Assembly (NCBI GenBank): GCA_028876585.1
Contig: JAGWRL010000238.1
Coordinates: 1-23,790, forward strand
Direction: 5' to 3'
Origin: Pseudomonadota bacterium
GTDB taxonomy: Bacteria > Pseudomonadota > Alphaproteobacteria > Rhizobiales > Beijerinckiaceae
Length of the DNA: 23,790 nucleotides
In this document: piece by piece, positions 7,993-23,001 of the stretch
Layout of the letters: every line of letters begins with the position of its first letter
Numbering within the stretch: position 1 is the first letter of the stretch
Made by a program: the position numbers and the translations under genes
Notes under the pieces: generated by a model
Databases searched by the model: none
Seen by the model: the letters and a program-made list of their open reading frames with translations, nothing else
What the model was told of the DNA's origin: nothing

Positions 7993-8802
<810 letters not shown>

Positions 8803-8832
8803 GACTGGCTCCGAACGTTTCGACGGACGCAA

Positions 8833-9681
8833 CTATTGGCCGCCGCGCTTGGGGGCGGCGAGCAGGCGCGCGAGAATGGAGAGCGTCAGCACCGCCGCGG
8901 TGACGATCAGCGCGCCGGTCCAGGCGAGCTTCTGCTGTTCGGCGTAGGGGCTGCGCGCGAATTCGTAGATGATGAGCGGCAGGCTCGACATCGGTTGCGT
9001 GACGTCGGCGTTGAACAGCGAATTGCCGAGCGCGGTGAAGATCAGCGGCGCCGTCTCGCCGGTCATGCGCGCCACCGCCAGCAGCACGCCGGTGACGAGG
9101 CCGCTCATCACCGCGCGATAGGCGACCTTGCGGATGATCAGCGAGCGCGGCATCCCCAACGCGGAAGCGGCCTCGCGCAAGGTGTTGGGCACCAGCGCGA
9201 GCATGTCCTCGGTCGTGCGCACGATGATCGGCGTCGCGATCACCGCCAGCGCCACGCCGCCGGCCAGCCCCGAGAAATGGCCGAACGGCACGACGCAGAA
9301 CTGATAGACGAACAGGCCGATGACGATCGAGGGCGCGCTCAGCAGGATATCGTTGATGAAGCGGATCAGGATCGCGAGTTTGGTGTGGCGGCCGTATTCG
9401 GCCAGATAGGTTCCCGCGAGCACGCCGATCGGCGCGGCCAGCGCCAGCCCGATCGCGGTCTGGATCAGGCTGCCGACGATCGAGTTGAGCAGGCCGCCGC
9501 GCACGCCCGGCGGCGAGGTCATCTTGGTGAACACGTCGAGCGACAGGCCGCCGACGCCCTTCCATAGCAGCGCGCCGAGGATCAGCGCGAGCCACGCCAG
9601 CCCGAACGCGGTCGCGGCGTAGCAGAAGACCGACCAGAACGCGTTATGCGCCCTGCGGCCGGCGTAAAGAGACCTGACCAT
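8833..9681 (-). CDS. pstA: Phosphate ABC transporter permease PstA
   Basis: Inner-membrane permease subunit pairing with PstC. The 282 aa have about six hydrophobic segments, starting with [20 protein letters not shown], and the permease coupling (EAA-like) loop '[19 protein letters not shown]' that contacts PstB. PstA-typical stretches include [30 protein letters not shown] and [16 protein letters not shown]. Its ATG shares a base with the pstC stop (TGATG), implying coupled translation and equal amounts of PstC and PstA. Confidence 0.95.
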
Positions 9682-10676
9682 CAGCGCGCGCCCCTGTTTT
9701 CGAGCCGGGCCAGCATCAGCCGCGCCGCCGCCAGGACCAGGAAGGTGATGAGGAACAGGATGAAGCCCAGCGCCAGCAGCGACGAGGTGAACAGGCCGGG
9801 ATCGGCGTCGGCGAAGGTGTTGGCGATCATCGCCGAGATCGTCGTGCCCTGCGCCAGGATCGAGGTCTCGATGTGCGGCGCGTTGCCGATGACGAAAGTC
9901 ACCGCCATCGTCTCGCCGAGGGCGCGGCCGAGCGCCAGCATGACGCCGCCGATCACGCCGACGCGGGTGTAAGGCAGCACGATATTGCCGACGACCTCGA
10001 AGGTGGTGGCGCCGACGCCATAGGCCGCCTCCTTCAACACCGGCGGCACGGTCTCGAACACGTCGCGCATGATCGAAGAGATGAAAGGCAGAACCATGAC
10101 GGCGAGGATGAAGCCCGCCGTCAGCACGCCGATGCCGAGCGGCGGACCGGCAAACAGCGCGCCGATCCCCGGCACGGCGCCGAGCGTGTGGATCAAAGCC
10201 GGTTGCAGATATTCCTGCATGAACGGCTTGAAGTAATACACGCCCCAGATGCCGTAGATGATCGAGGGGATGCCGGCGAGCAACTCGATTGCGACGCCGA
10301 CCGGACGGCGCAGCGCCGGCGGACAAAGCTCGGTCAGGAACACCGCGACGCCCAGGCCGACCGGCACGCCGATCAGCATGGCGATGATCGCCGTCAGCAG
10401 CGTGCCGTAGATCGCCGCCGCCGCGCCGAATTTCTCTCGCGGCGGGTTCCAGGCGTCGCTGATGAAGAAGTCGAGGCCGAAATGCTGGAACGCCGGCCAG
10501 GCGCCGATGAACAACGAGATGGCGACGCCGAGCAGCAGCACCAGCACGATCAGCGCGGCCGCCAGCGTCATGACGCGGAAGCTCGCATCGGCGCCCTTCA
10601 GCCGCGCCAGCGCGCGGGCGCGATCGAACGTCGCGGTTCGCGCGGCCGGCGTCGAGGGCAGGGCGGTCGATGTCAT
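9681..10676 (-). CDS. pstC: Phosphate ABC transporter permease PstC
   Basis: Second permease subunit. The 331 aa have a cytoplasmic N-terminus and about six membrane helices, the first being [20 protein letters not shown]. Family stretches are [48 protein letters not shown], the coupling loop '[20 protein letters not shown]', and [16 protein letters not shown]. The start used is ATG 10676 ([10 protein letters not shown]), preceded by GGAAG; an in-frame GTG at 10703 is possible but lacks a better ribosome site. It is separated from pstS by 74 bases that contain a GC-rich hairpin. Confidence 0.95.
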
Positions 10677-10717
10677 GTCGTCACTTCCACGCGAAAGCCG
10701 CACGCGAAACCTCGAAG

Positions 10718-10740
10718 GCCGGCGGCGCGAGGCCGCCGGC
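10718..10740 (-). terminator. GC-rich hairpin between pstS and pstC (attenuator or RNA stabiliser)
   Basis: A perfect 9-bp stem, GCCGGCGGC with GCCGCCGGC, around a 5-base loop. It lies 11 bases after the pstS stop codon. No U-run follows, so it is not a classical intrinsic terminator. It probably lets only part of transcription through or protects the 3' end of pstS mRNA, which would give much more periplasmic PstS than permease. Confidence 0.6.
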
Positions 10741-10750
10741 TCGTGTCACG

Positions 10751-11764
10751 TCACTTCTGGGCGATGTCCTTCGCCCAGGTCTTCTTGACCATGTCGATGA
10801 CATTGGCCGGCATCGGGATGTAATCGAGCGCCGTGGCTTCCTCCGCGCCCTTTTCATAGGCCCAGCCGAAGAACTTCAGCGCTTCGTTAGAGGCGGCGAG
10901 GTCGACCGGCTTCTTGTACATCAGGATGAAGGTGGCGGCGGTCATCGGCCACGACTTGTCGCCGGGCTGATCCGACAGGATCAGATAATAGCCGGGCGCC
11001 TTGGCCCAGTCGGCGTTGGCGGCGGCGGCCTGGAACGCCTCGATGGTCGGCGCGACCTTCTTGCCGTCCTTGTTGATCATGTCGACCCAGGCCAGCTTGT
11101 TCTGCTTGGCGTAGGCGTATTCGACGAAGCCGATCGCGCCTTCGGTGCCGGCGACGTTGCTGGAGACGCCGTCGTTGCCCTTGGCGCCGATGCCGACCGG
11201 CCAATCGACCGAGGTCGCCGAACCAACCTTGTCGCTCCATTCCGGCGAGACCTTGGAGAGATAGTTGGTGAAGTTGAAGGTGGTGCCCGAGCCGTCGGCG
11301 CGGTGAATGACCGCGATGGCGGTCGCCGGCAGCTTCACGCCGGGGTTGAGCTTGGCGATCGCCGGATCGTTCCAGGTCTTGATCTTGCCGATGAAGATGT
11401 CGGCCAGCGTCTTGCCGTCGAGCGTCAGTTCGTCGGCCTTGACGCCGTTGAGATGGGCGACGGGAACGATGCCGCCCATCACCATCGGCCATTGCGCCAG
11501 GCCCGCCTCGTCGAGGTCCTTGGCCTTCAGCGGCGCGTCGGTGGCGCCGAAGGTCACGGTCTTGGCCTTGATCTGCTTGATGCCCGCGCCCGAGCCGATC
11601 GACTGGTAGTTGAGGCCGTTGCCGGTCGCCTTCTTATAGCTGTCCGCCCACTTGGCGTAGATCGGATAGGGAAAGGTCGCCCCGGCGCCGGAGATGTCGG
11701 CGGCCGCCGCGCCAGTGACGCTGGCCGCGACCAGCGCCGCGCCGAGAAGGGACTTGAGGAACAT
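10751..11764 (-). CDS. pstS: Periplasmic phosphate-binding protein PstS
   Basis: High-affinity periplasmic phosphate receptor delivering phosphate to PstCAB. The 337 aa start with a signal peptide (residues 1-21, ending GAAA before [13 protein letters not shown]). Family marks are the [13 protein letters not shown] start, [21 protein letters not shown], and [15 protein letters not shown], in which Arg/Asp/Ser/Gly/Thr contact phosphate. No lipobox is present, so it is a soluble periplasmic form. The ATG at 11764 follows GAGG. It is the first gene after the Pho-box region, transcribed toward pstC. Confidence 0.96.
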
Positions 11765-19650: not shown

Positions 19651-20397
19651 ATGGCGCGGTATCGGCTGACGATCGAATACGACGGCGCGGCCTATTCCGG
19701 CTGGCAGCGGCAGGAGAACGCCCGCTCGATCCAGCAGGCGCTCGAACAGGCGATCGCGAGATTCGCCCCCGAAGTGAAGCACGTCGCCGGCGCCGGGCGC
19801 ACCGATGCGGGCGTGCATGCGCGCGGTCAGGTCGCGCATGTCGATCTCGACCGCGATTGGCCGGGCTGGCGGCTGCGCGAGGCGATCAACGCGCATCTCG
19901 CGCGCGACATGATCAGCGTGGTTGACGCGGCGCCTGTGGCGGCCGAGTTCGACGCGCGGCGCAGCGCCACAGCGCGGCACTATGGCTATGTCGTGATCAA
20001 CCGGCGCGCGCCGCTGGTGTTCGAGCGCGGCCGGGCGTGGCGCGTCAAGCCGCCGCTCGACGCGGACGCCATGCACGCGGCGGCGCAAGGCTTGGTCGGC
20101 CGCCACGATTTCTCGACCTTCCGCGACGCGCAATGTCAGGCCAATTCGCCGCTGCGCACGCTCGATTACCTCAAGGTCGAGCGCGCCGGCGAGGCGATCC
20201 GGTTCGAGGTCGGCGCGCGCTCGTTCCTGCATCGGCAGGTGCGCTCGATGGTGGGCTCGCTGGTCGAGGTGGGATTGGGCAAATGGAGCGCCGCCGATTT
20301 GCGCGCCGCGCTGGAGGCCGCCGACCGTAGCCGCTGCGGCCCGGTCGCGCCGCCCGACGGGCTTTATCTGGAGCGGGTCGACTACCCGTTGAAATAG
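19651..20397 (+). CDS. truA: tRNA pseudouridine synthase A
   Basis: Makes pseudouridine at positions 38-40 of the tRNA anticodon arm. The 248 aa are of normal length. The catalytic Asp52 lies in [13 protein letters not shown]; the N-terminus [17 protein letters not shown] and the C-terminal [13 protein letters not shown] are diagnostic. The ATG directly abuts the stop of the quinone reductase. The 3' end overlaps dapE on the other strand by 16 bases. Housekeeping gene. Confidence 0.97.
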
Positions 20398-21515
20398 CGG
20401 CGCAGGATGCGCTCGTAGATCGACGACAAAGCTTCGAGGTCGGCGAGGTCGGCGTATTCGTCGACGCCGTGCATGTTGCCGCTGAGTAGGCCGAGTTCGA
20501 CCACCGGGCAGATGTCCTTGATGAAGCGCGCGTCCGAGGTGCCGCCGCCGGTGGAGAGTTCGGGCCGCCGGCCCGTCACGTCGGCGACGGCGTCGCTGAC
20601 CAGATCGGTGAACGGCCCGCGCGGGGTGAGGAAGGAAACCGCGTTGGTTGGATCGAACGCGAGTTCATAGGTCACGCCGGCCGCGTCGAGCCGGCGGCGG
20701 AGTTCGGCGGCGAGCGTGTCGGGGCTCCAGCGGTCGTTGAAGCGGATGTTGAAGACGGCGCGCACCTCGCCGGGAATGACGTTTGTGGCGGGATTGCCGA
20801 CATCGACGGTGACGATTTCGAGGTTGCTCGGCTGGAAATCGGCCGTGCCCTGATCGAGCGCTGGCGACAGAAGCGCGTCGAGCGCGCGCGGCAGGGCGCG
20901 CACGGGATTGTCGGCGAGATGGGGGTAGGCGACGTGGCCCTGCTTGCCGATCAGCCGCAGCCGCCCGGTCAGCGAGCCGCGCCGGCCGTTCTTGATCGTG
21001 TCGCCGAGGCGGGCGACGCTGGTCGGCTCGCCCAGCACGCAATAATCGATCCGCTCGCCCCGCGCCTGCGCCCATTGCACCAGCTTCACCGTGCCGTCGA
21101 CGGCGGGGCCTTCCTCGTCGCCGGTCAGCAGGAAGGCGATCGAGCCGGTGCAGGCGCCGGAGGCGGCGAAGCGCAGGCTGGCGGCGAGCGCGGCGGCGAC
21201 GCCGCCCTTCATGTCGGCCGCGCCGCGCCCCCACAGCCGGCCGTCGGCGATCTCGGCCGCGAACGGATCGCAGCGCCAGCGCGAGACATCGCCGGGCTGC
21301 ACGACGTCGGTGTGGCCGGCGAAGGCGAGACAGGGCGCGGCGGTCCCGAACCGCGCGTAAAGGTTCTCGATCTCGCCGAAGCGCAGCCGCTCGCAGGCGA
21401 AGCCGGCGTGGGCGAGCAGGTCCTGCACGTAGCCGAGCGCGCCCGCGTCGGCGGGCGTCACGGAGGGGAAGCGGATCAACTGTTGCGCGATTTCCAGCGC
21501 GGTCGGACTTGTCAT
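20382..21515 (-). CDS. dapE: Succinyl-diaminopimelate desuccinylase
   Basis: Di-zinc M20 enzyme that removes succinate from N-succinyl-LL-diaminopimelate in lysine and peptidoglycan synthesis. The 377 aa match the family length. Metal ligands and catalytic residues are visible: His68 and Asp70 in [11 protein letters not shown], Asp101 in [10 protein letters not shown], Glu134/135 in TGDEEGPA, Glu163 in LGEPTS, and the late His in GNMHGVDEY. The ATG at 21515 overlaps the stop of the upstream repressor gene as ATGA, so its translation may depend on that gene. The frame is open further upstream but the extension has no homology character. Confidence 0.96.
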
Positions 21516-22099
21516 CGCGGACGCATTTCGCGCACCAGCGCCGCCCAGTAAAGGATGACGTCGTAGATCGGCGGCTCGGTGTTGGAGAGCAGGGTCCACA
21601 GGCCCGCCACCTGAGAGCGCTTCAGCGCCTTGACCAGCACCCGGCCGTCGGCGAGGCCGCAGACGCACATGCGCCCGACCAGATCGTCGCCGGGCGGGTC
21701 GCGCACGTCGTCGTAGAACACCAGCCAGTTATCGAACAGCGCGCCGAGCGAATGGCCGCGAATCTGCACCGCGACAGTCGAGGCGCTCGCCGCGTCCGGC
21801 GCGTCGACGTCGTCGAACGGCCCCTGCGCGTCGGCGTAGAAATGCGCGATCGCGCCGGCGCCGACATAGCCGACGAGGGGCACCCGGCCGGTGGGATGGC
21901 GCGAACGGCCGCCGCCGACCAGACGCGGCGGATCGACGCCGAGATATTCGGCGACGATGGCGATTTCCTCCGCCCGCAGGCGGCGCGAGCCGTTGAGGAG
22001 GTCAGTCACGGCGGAGGGCGAACGGCCGAGCGCCTTGGCCAGACCGCTGCGGGTCTTGCGCTTTTCTTTCAGGCCTTCCCGAATCCAATCGACGGTCAT
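21512..22099 (-). CDS. XRE-family HTH repressor with S24/LexA-like C-terminal domain
   Basis: A 195-aa transcription regulator. The N-terminal HTH (about 5-60) includes [20 protein letters not shown] and [17 protein letters not shown]. The C-terminal domain (about 72-190) resembles phage CI/LexA S24 peptidases: [11 protein letters not shown] with the Ala81-Gly82 bond, Ser117 in [12 protein letters not shown], and Lys157 in VLVKALK. The spacing (81, 117, 157) is close to LexA (84, 119, 156), so RecA-stimulated self-cleavage is plausible though unproven. It differs from true LexA, whose HTH is winged. The ATG at 22099 has a weak ribosome site. Its stop overlaps dapE. It diverges from two small unknown genes, with several inverted repeats between; autoregulation is likely. 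Confidence 0.82.
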
Positions 22100-22109
22100 G
22101 TGTTAACTA

Positions 22110-22124
22110 TTCGGCTTTTCCGAA
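22110..22124. promoter_or_regulatory. Inverted repeat TTCGG-N5-CCGAA in the repressor leader
   Basis: A perfect 5-bp inverted repeat 10 bases before the repressor ATG and downstream of its probable -10. It may be an operator or a small leader hairpin. Confidence 0.4.
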
Positions 22125-22133
22125 CGCTAGGCA

Positions 22134-22162
22134 ATTATGAATTTCAGAAATTTTGTTGACAG
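22134..22162 (-). promoter_or_regulatory. Candidate promoter of the S24-like repressor gene
   Basis: On the minus strand CTGTCA (22162-22157), 17 bases, then CATAAT (22139-22134). The spacer contains the 13-bp perfect palindrome AATTTC-A-GAAATT (22140-22152). The -35 shares its bases with the -35 of the divergent plus-strand promoter. Confidence 0.5.
22140..22152. promoter_or_regulatory. 13-bp perfect palindrome AATTTC-A-GAAATT
   Basis: A perfect 6-1-6 palindrome in the spacer of the repressor's own candidate promoter, 6 bases from the larger palindrome at 22159. It fits a second operator for autorepression. Confidence 0.45.
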
Positions 22163-22184
22163 AACCGTTCTGTTTCCCCAAAAT
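22156..22184 (+). promoter_or_regulatory. Candidate promoter of the two-gene plus-strand operon
   Basis: TTGACA (22156-22161), a 17-base spacer, then CAAAAT (22179-22184). The -35 is a perfect consensus. The 15-bp palindrome at 22159-22173 covers the -35 and spacer, and the LexA-type site at 22187-22201 covers the expected transcription start. Confidence 0.6.
22159..22173. promoter_or_regulatory. 15-bp perfect palindrome ACAGAAC-C-GTTCTGT, probable main operator
   Basis: A perfect 7-1-7 inverted repeat overlapping the -35 elements of both divergent promoters. The position allows one bound repressor to block both directions, as in phage immunity regions. The likely binder is the adjacent XRE/S24 repressor. 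Confidence 0.65.
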
Positions 22185-22186
22185 GA

Positions 22187-22201
22187 GAACATAACACGAA
22201 C
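22187..22201 (+). promoter_or_regulatory. LexA-type SOS box GAAC-N7-GAAC
   Basis: GAACATAACACGAAC matches the alphaproteobacterial LexA direct-repeat consensus GAAC-N7-GAAC (GTTC-N7-GTTC on the other strand). It lies directly after the candidate -10 and 16 bases before the start codon of the small gene, where binding would block initiation. Confidence 0.6.
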
Positions 22202-22216
22202 AAATTGGAGGCTGGG

Positions 22217-22435
22217 ATGGCGAAGGCTGCGACGCGGGTGCGATGCGAGGAAACCGAGGGCGAGCGATCCCGCCGGGCCTGTCAGCGCCATCTCAACGAC
22301 CTCAAACGCGCGCAGGGGCGGCCGCCGCCGGACGTGGCGGTGAAATCCACTTCGACGCCGCTGCGCATCGCCGGCGTTCCCGCCTCGTCCAATTGTACGT
22401 CCCCCAGCGCCCTCTGTGCGGAGTTGATGTCATGA
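22217..22435 (+). CDS. Small hypothetical protein, 72 aa, first gene of putative SOS operon
   Basis: I do not recognise this protein. The start ATG at 22217 follows a perfect GGAGG (22207-22211) at 5 nt. The N-terminal half is basic and charged (ETEGERSRRACQRHLNDLKR, about 13-31) and probably helical; the C-terminal half is Ser/Pro-rich and likely disordered. It has four cysteines (10, 22, 60, 67) and one histidine (25) without a clear zinc-finger pattern. No signal peptide or membrane segment is present. The stop overlaps the next start as ATGA, indicating coupled translation. The strong ribosome site and the regulated promoter support a real gene. Confidence 0.65.
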   Translation: MAKAATRVRCEETEGERSRRACQRHLNDLKRAQGRPPPDVAVKSTSTPLRIAGVPASSNCTSPSALCAELMS

Positions 22436-23001
22436 CCCTGAAGCCCCGCAAGTCCAAGAAGGCCGAGGCCGCCGCGCTGGAGGAAAAACTCGACGCGACG
22501 CCGGAACGGCTCGCGCGCGCCGAAGAGGCGGGCCAGGCGGCCGAAAAGGCGCCGGGCCGGGCGCGCCGGCTGCTCGATCCGTTCGACGTGATGCGCGCCA
22601 CCCGCGCGCTGGCGCCGCACGATCCCAAGCTCAACGACATCCGCTGGCTGACCGGCGAGGCGTTGCGCCGCGTCCACAGCCGCGCCGGCCTCGACGGCCT
22701 GCGCGCGATCTCGACCGACCGGATCGGCCAGACCGGCTTCGGCCCGCGCTCCGGCCTGCCGGCGAGCGAAATCGCCTTGCACGCGCGGGATAAAATTCGG
22801 GCTGCTGAGGAGCGGGTCGGCCCGGCGGCGTGGCCGATCCTGACCCGCATCATCCTCGAAGGCGCGGGCGTGCGCGAATGTCGCGGCTTCGTGCCCGAGA
22901 TCGTCACCCCCTGGCGCGCCGACGCCGTCGTCACCGACCGCCTGCGCGTCGCGCTCGACGCGCTGAGCGGGCTGGTCGGGGTGACGGGGGGGAAGCGGTG
23001 A
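22432..23001 (+). CDS. Hypothetical protein, 189 aa, second gene of putative SOS operon
   Basis: Not firmly recognised. The N-terminus (1-45) is Lys/Glu/Ala-rich and probably helical or coiled. The remainder contains LLDPFDVMRATRALAPHDPK, IRWLTGEALRRVHSRAGLDG, and a helical C-terminal part: AAEERVGPAAWPILTRIILE, VRECRGF, VVTDRLRVALDALSGLVG. The 'ERVGPAAWPILTRIILEGAGV' type pattern loosely recalls the C-terminus of DUF6456-like alphaproteobacterial and phage proteins, which would suggest DNA-linked regulation, but I am not confident. It is soluble with no signal peptide. The ATG at 22432 overlaps the stop of the 72-aa gene; an open frame extends upstream but is a shadow of that gene. Confidence 0.75.
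   Translation: MTLKPRKSKKAEAAALEEKLDATPERLARAEEAGQAAEKAPGRARRLLDPFDVMRATRALAPHDPKLNDIRWLTGEALRRVHSRAGLDGLRAISTDRIGQTGFGPRSGLPASEIALHARDKIRAAEERVGPAAWPILTRIILEGAGVRECRGFVPEIVTPWRADAVVTDRLRVALDALSGLVGVTGGKR

Follow-up and report, generated by a model that had tools for sequence, protein, structure and literature searches.

Genes and promoter region of the locus

The window, that is the whole stretch of 23,790 nucleotides analysed here, carries a repressor gene that faces a two-gene operon (together, the triad). The repressor gene (21512–22099, minus strand) encodes a protein of 195 amino acids (aa), composed of an XRE helix–turn–helix (residues ~1–60) and an S24/LexA-type domain (residues ~72–195). 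The operon, on the plus strand, is composed of s72 (22217–22435), its first gene, encoding a 72-aa protein, and of o189 (22432–23001), encoding a 189-aa protein; the two genes overlap by ATGA. The repressor gene itself overlaps dapE by 4 bp (ATGA, 21512–21515; dapE, 20382–21515, minus strand, PRK13009 E 3e-150), which suggests a common transcript, so that, as far as gene arrangement can tell, repressor gene and dapE are probably co-transcribed. The triad is flanked by dapE and by a gene for a degP-like trypsin protease, and inspection by eye of the window's gene list shows no integrase and no phage structural gene. The initial annotation of this DNA had described the same housekeeping flanks, the same lack of integrase and structural genes nearby and the same divergent arrangement, with Ala81-Gly82, Ser117 and Lys157 in the repressor, and the motif positions and coordinates agree with ours. 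These residues, together with a predicted fold like that of LexA and lambda CI, place the repressor among CI/LexA-type proteins for which self-cleavage is predicted; its match to PF00717 is below the cut-off.

The divergent promoter region between the repressor gene and s72 (22100–22216, 117 bp) contains every element that had been claimed for it, namely both promoters, three inverted repeats and a GAAC-N7-GAAC site. The predicted promoters, both sigma-70-like, are TTGACA-17-CAAAAT for the operon (22156–22184, plus strand) and CTGTCA-17-CATAAT for the repressor gene (22162–22134, minus strand); they overlap in opposite directions, and two such promoters in the gap compare with a mean of 0.1 in shuffles. 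The TTGAC of the operon promoter is kept in the 11 triad loci compared. The inverted repeat TTCGG-N5-CCGAA (22110–22124) is a candidate operator of the local repressor, and ten of the 12 triad loci have TTCNG-N5-CNGAA in this gap, the exceptions being G003 and G004. The other two repeats are short, odd-centred palindromes: AATTTCaGAAATT (22140–22152) lies over the repressor promoter, and ACAGAACcGTTCTGT (22159–22173), a second candidate operator in which GAAC/GTTC half-sites are also present, lies over the overlapping -35 elements. The LexA-type box GAACATAACACGAAC (22187–22201, plus strand) is placed 2 bp past the operon -10, and its motif agrees with the published Caulobacter LexA box GTTCN7GTTC (PMC12700426). 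The window holds two GAAC-N7-GAAC matches against a shuffle mean of 0.59; a single box is therefore not beyond chance, and means little without comparison.

Relatives of the three proteins and of the LexA-type box

The 248 genomes compared belong to the family of Roseiarcus fermentans (Roseiarcaceae at NCBI, a family whose GTDB name we take to be Beijerinckiaceae), and 21 of them have a match to o189 at E 1e-3 or better. In 11 of these 21, called clade A (G001–G005, G032, G121, G141, G169, G194 and G207), repressor, s72 and o189 occur together, o189 being cut by the contig end in G207 and G169, so that the conservation of the triad, on which the initial reading depended, holds throughout the clade. 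dapE is the next gene after the repressor in nine of the 11, at 8–177 bp in the eight that were measured, the ninth (G207) being taken from the gene listing; in G005 it is 5 kb from the repressor, and in G003 there is none in the remaining 1.1 kb of the contig. The dN/dS values against G001 (NG86) are 0.033/0.327 for the repressor, 0.184/0.665 for s72 and 0.056/0.314 for o189, and these low ratios fit a kept function. In addition, 12 positions of s72, including the start Met, are identical in 12 of 12 aligned sequences.

Six further genomes form clade B, with an o189 relative at 36–39% identity. There a repressor relative faces a GcrA-like gene (6/6 by BLAST; PF07750 over the cut-off in the one scanned), and a VRR-NUC-like gene is present in five (PF08774 E 0.036, below the cut-off, in the one scanned). 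The four weaker relatives are those of G177 (L072), G046 (L073) and G211 (L075) and the canonical GafZ of G190 (L074). Two of these loci are prophage-like, L072 with a resolvase and a large terminase and L073 with a resolvase, and L075 lies beside a terminase; in Roseiarcus, an o189 relative (L084) has an integrase gene (PF00589) 7.5 kb away.

Neither small protein could be assigned in the initial annotation, which stands for s72 and no longer for o189. At a limit of E 1, Pfam, NCBIfam and PADLOC return nothing for s72, which has two weak terminase rows in PHROGs (E 0.017 and 0.11). Nor does s72 match, up to E 1, the DnaA-type helix–turn–helix of GafY (PF08299), a family that the GafY of G190 matches at E 2e-12. 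The gene in the s72 position varies by lineage: DnaA-like GafY (PF08299), GcrA-like plus VRR-NUC-like, a 170-aa protein, or s72. o189 scores 15.2 bits (E 0.024) against PF20057 (DUF6456), below the curated cut-off of 26.3 bits, and its distant relative in G114, taken with its neighbours in frame, reaches 26.6 bits. Over the domain, o189 can be aligned with canonical GafZ (20 sequences, GafZ of G190 at 25%), with R79, L171 and L175 invariant. The antiterminator Q of phage 21 ranks first against the predicted fold of o189, with 9% identity in the alignment; the o189 profile has no match among PDB sequences up to E 1. We conclude from these alignments that o189 is a divergent relative of DUF6456, the C-terminal domain of the GafZ/GafA activators of gene transfer agents (GTAs), and hence a candidate late activator or antiterminator. 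Because its score is under the Pfam cut-off and s72 does not resemble GafY, we use the term GafZ-like for o189, and not GafZ.

A pattern scan of IMG/VR found o189 relatives in two contigs; the repressor and the LexA box were not seen in these two stretches, and the same kind of scan found no repressor relative in IMG/VR. o189 and two distant relatives have no match in 50,697 phages; the repressor matches three phage records, among them Mesorhizobium phage vB_MseS-P1 at 46%. A GafZ-type pair in that phage was considered and rejected, its 192-aa gp24, beside a weakly DnaA-like gp23 (PF08299 E 0.0045), showing no relationship with o189. No ordinary housekeeping family was found for the small proteins, which leaves the initial reading standing on this point, and a defence system was discarded because PADLOC matched neither s72 nor o189 up to E 1. 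We likewise gave up the hypothesis that clade A has a further, canonical GafZ: of the six extra PF20057 matches (G001, G002, G003, G121, G169 and G207), three (L166, L170 and L175) have sigma-70 region 2 and 4 families over the cut-offs, and the other three are similar by eye. Weak DUF6456 matches were also seen in G038, G075, G128 and G185. DUF6456 is over the cut-off in 162 of the 248 genomes of the family, but in none of the 11 of clade A.

The LexA-type box is present in 11 of 12 triad promoters (absent in G005), with its eight bases constant and its spacers variable. GAAC-N7-GAAC also lies upstream of lexA in all 11 clade A genomes and upstream of recA in six of the seven in which recA was found. 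The triad promoters thus carry, conserved and at the promoter itself, the GTTC-N7-GTTC/GAAC-N7-GAAC motif of a LexA regulon, and this site suggests that DNA damage helps to switch the operon on. The box was found in none of the six clade B promoters. It was found in five of five promoters of a second type of switch (G160, G103, G126, G146 and G211), where it reads GTTC-N7-GTTC, being on the opposite strand, and lies at the -10 region. In this switch, located directly beside the terminase genes TerS and TerL, an S24 repressor of a 249-aa type diverges from a gene of the 170-aa type and a DUF6456 protein of ~228 aa; in G160 the repressor matches PF00717 at E 4e-12 and the DUF6456 protein reaches 29.4 bits, over the cut-off.

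Among 60 canonical DUF6456 loci, chosen not at random but by score, from the top of the listed ranking of the 162 genomes, 31 have the box within 700 bp upstream of gafZ. There is no other GAAC-N7-GAAC in the remaining 161,742 bp of these loci, nine other spacings (3 to 12) are found in 0–2 of the 60, and eleven other permutations of the tetramers in 0–4. The corresponding Fisher p of 5e-22 overstates independence because the loci are related. In these canonical loci the second GAAC often overlaps the start codon (ATG-AAC).

Structural cluster and dapD/dapE junctions

A GTA-like structural cluster is present in the relatives. Nine of the 11 genomes of clade A and four of the six of clade B have a GTA_TIM match (PF13547); as 191 of the 248 genomes have one, it is weak evidence by itself. 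Of the 11 clade A genomes, nine have a terminase orthologue of the cluster; where triad and cluster were both found they are on different contigs. The clusters of relatives include terminase and portal genes (Pfam), with a presumed capsid gene that has no Pfam match; a tailocin was rejected on this account.

dapD was found in 19 of the 21 genomes searched, and dapE adjoins it in seven of the nine outgroups with dapD. In six of the ten clade A genomes with dapD (G003, G005, G032, G121, G141 and G169), TerS is the next element gene after dapD, followed by TerL in five of them, the G141 contig ending inside TerS. Four genomes (G032, G121, G141 and G169) have both the dapE–triad and the dapD–TerS joins. 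As the triad borders dapE, TerS follows dapD, and dapD and dapE are adjacent in outgroups, the joins are the two sides of one ancestral gap, and, judged from these junctions, triad and cluster look like the two ends of one old prophage that was inserted between dapD and dapE and has since been disrupted internally. No dapD–TerS join was seen in G194 and G004. As read by eye, in G001 and G207, the genomes closest to the window, an alcohol-dehydrogenase-like gene follows dapD and the head genes are close to genes for ATP synthase; in G001 a tail fragment is on another contig, the structural genes being apparently split.

Models for the switch

The triad resembles the RogA–GafY–GafZ system of the Caulobacter GTA, in which a repressor with helix–turn–helix and S24-type domains, an operon of two genes, the second of them related to DUF6456, and a cluster located elsewhere are described (PMC9632790, PMC11150451), and for Caulobacter GafZ a sigma-like helix–turn–helix is reported (PMC9632790, PMC11150451). 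The fold and position of our repressor fit a RogA-type role, a likeness to RogA by description from which control of the operon is predicted. The systems differ in several ways: RogA is reported without key catalytic residues (PMC9632790), whereas the repressor here keeps Ser117 and Lys157; RogA (CCNA_00080) is distant from gafYZ (CCNA_01111/01112) (PMC9632790, PMC11150451), whereas our repressor adjoins its operon; and here the first gene is not DnaA-like and a LexA box is added. The DUF6456 domain, the two-gene split and the link to GTA activation also recall GafA of Rhodobacter capsulatus and the split gafA of Hyphomicrobiales, whose canonical locus is reported next to sufE and mucR, unlike the triad by dapE with its own repressor (PMC9638019, PMC6363796).

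The initial annotation had offered, as the first of two options, a domesticated lysogeny switch under a double lock, a reading that fits the conserved triad and box, the LexA/CI fold, the DUF6456 relative in viral contigs and the probable partner cluster of structural genes in relatives. We hold it to be fairly probable that the triad serves as switch to a tamed prophage or GTA-like element, with LexA and a self-cleavable repressor acting together to restrain a GafZ-like late activator. An ancient prophage would have integrated between dapD and dapE and later been tamed into a GTA-like element, the triad being its control region. The operon is most likely blocked by LexA and the local repressor together; gene content, conservation of genes and box, similarity of fold and the matching junctions are what we observe, and binding, cleavage, antitermination, target cluster and particles what we infer. 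In the undamaged cell LexA would occupy the start-site box, and the S24 repressor the palindromes over the -35 elements. DNA damage would activate RecA, which would provoke self-cleavage of both proteins, and the operon would then express the 72-aa and DUF6456-like proteins. By analogy with GafZ, o189 may then bind a promoter of the distant structural cluster and drive it in trans, RNA polymerase reading through the cluster.

In the CTX phage and in GIL01 the lytic promoter is jointly controlled by host LexA and by a factor borne by the element. The triad differs from these in lying on the chromosome next to a housekeeping gene and in having a DUF6456-like protein as its effector. Induction through host LexA is an established phage habit (PMC9437464), and the triad might control an ordinary prophage, or one in decay, whose genes have been scattered and whose cluster, if active, would make infectious phage. 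The repressor relative in vB_MseS-P1, the o189 relatives in the two IMG/VR contigs and in the prophage-like L072 and L073, and L084 with its integrase point this way; we nevertheless consider it unlikely, as the dapE neighbour is constant in 9 of 11 genomes, dN/dS is low, inspection by eye of the genes listed for the triad regions and for L177 and L222 shows no integrase, and the structural genes appear split in G001.

The position of triad and cluster on different contigs, and the region upstream of TerS, with the LexA box in none of eight cases and TTCNG-N5-CNGAA in one of eight, speak for another reading, in which o189 now serves the host as an SOS-responsive regulator of its genes and has lost control of the phage cluster. 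Caulobacter GafZ, however, likewise acts in trans on an unlinked cluster (PMC11150451), and triad and cluster genes are retained together in 9 of 11 genomes, which makes such a recruitment improbable in our view. We give still less credence to the idea that the GAAC repeat serves the local repressor as operator, or belongs to the context of a start codon, and is not a LexA site. The half-sites in the adjacent ACAGAACcGTTCTGT and the ATG-AAC overlap in many canonical loci speak for it; against it, the same box lies upstream of lexA in 11 of 11 relatives and at two further promoter types, its eight bases stay fixed over variable spacers, and other spacings or permuted tetramers occur in 0–4 of the 60 canonical loci.

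LexA has been connected with GTAs before: in Rhodobacter it is needed for GTA production and appears to act on RcGTA via CckA (PMC6363796, PMC9638019), and in Dinoroseobacter LexA sites were predicted in silico at the GTA cluster itself, gafA being listed under CtrA (PMC6473078). The Caulobacter GTA was found during the study of an SOS-independent damage response (PMC9632790). In the open-licence literature searched, within the text available, we found none that reports LexA sites for gafA, gafYZ or DUF6456 genes; the LexA-type box at promoters of DUF6456-type activators and the dapE-linked form of the switch thus seem to be new.

The trigger of GTA production is an open question, on which the LexA-type box at the activator promoter in 31 of 60 canonical loci bears. 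We put forward, as a tentative proposal, that in this Hyphomicrobiales family the master activators of GTA-like elements are under direct LexA control, the SOS box having been kept or gained at canonical gafY/gafZ, at the terminase-joined repressor–DUF6456 switch and at the dapE-linked triad, so that cells with damaged DNA would respond, through SOS, by releasing particles filled with DNA. If this is true, such particles would give neighbours intact DNA for repair, and the clade of the window would add a self-cleavable repressor, probably co-transcribed with dapE, as a second lock opened by the same signal. The triad also illustrates how a phage switch may come to reside in a housekeeping operon, that of dapE.

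Copies and relatives of the o189 gene on putative mobile and viral DNA

In Roseiarcus fermentans a further copy of o189, the 189-aa gene of the window, about 61–63% identical to the window's o189, was observed. By Pfam assignment this second copy adjoins an extra DnaN sliding-clamp gene, and an integrase gene lies 7.5 kb from the pair (stretch L084, 4671–6720 and 14208–15212). This stretch is a putative mobile element that bears the same effector as the window. Relatives of o189 also occur in two predicted viral contigs of IMG/VR (L338, 1537–1947; L339, 6001–6417), and no repressor of the window's type was found near them in these contig stretches. The DUF6456 profile, to whose family o189 is distantly related, weakly matches ECF-type sigma factors (L170, 620–1186; L175, 2196–2762; L166, 7155–7724), and these matches are in keeping with a predicted sigma-like helix–turn–helix in DUF6456.

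Promoters and first genes of related operons

A LexA-type box (GAAC-N7-GAAC) is absent from 29 of the 60 canonical DUF6456 loci examined (L278–L337). The first gene of the clade B operons, whose genomes carry an o189 relative, resembles the C-terminal part of GcrA (L066–L071). The divergent promoter of L071 holds two palindromes of the TGTGCCCATATTGGGCACA type, and similar ones are present in its kin.

Portal region and the repressor–dapE junction

In the relatives' GTA-like structural cluster, several partial copies of the portal gene come after that gene (L243, 2858–11928; L242; L171, 1701–6042) and alternate with small genes of lower GC3, so that the portal-to-protease interval resembles a cassette array. 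In the window itself, PstB-, PstC- and PstS-like genes (7993–11764) resemble a phosphate ABC transporter and, judged by eye, are ordinary.

The repressor gene overlaps the housekeeping gene dapE by ATGA (21512–21515), and the gene order repressor–dapE recurs in 9 of 11 relatives. Because of this overlap, it seems likely that a phage-type repressor and a cell-wall/lysine gene share one common transcript.
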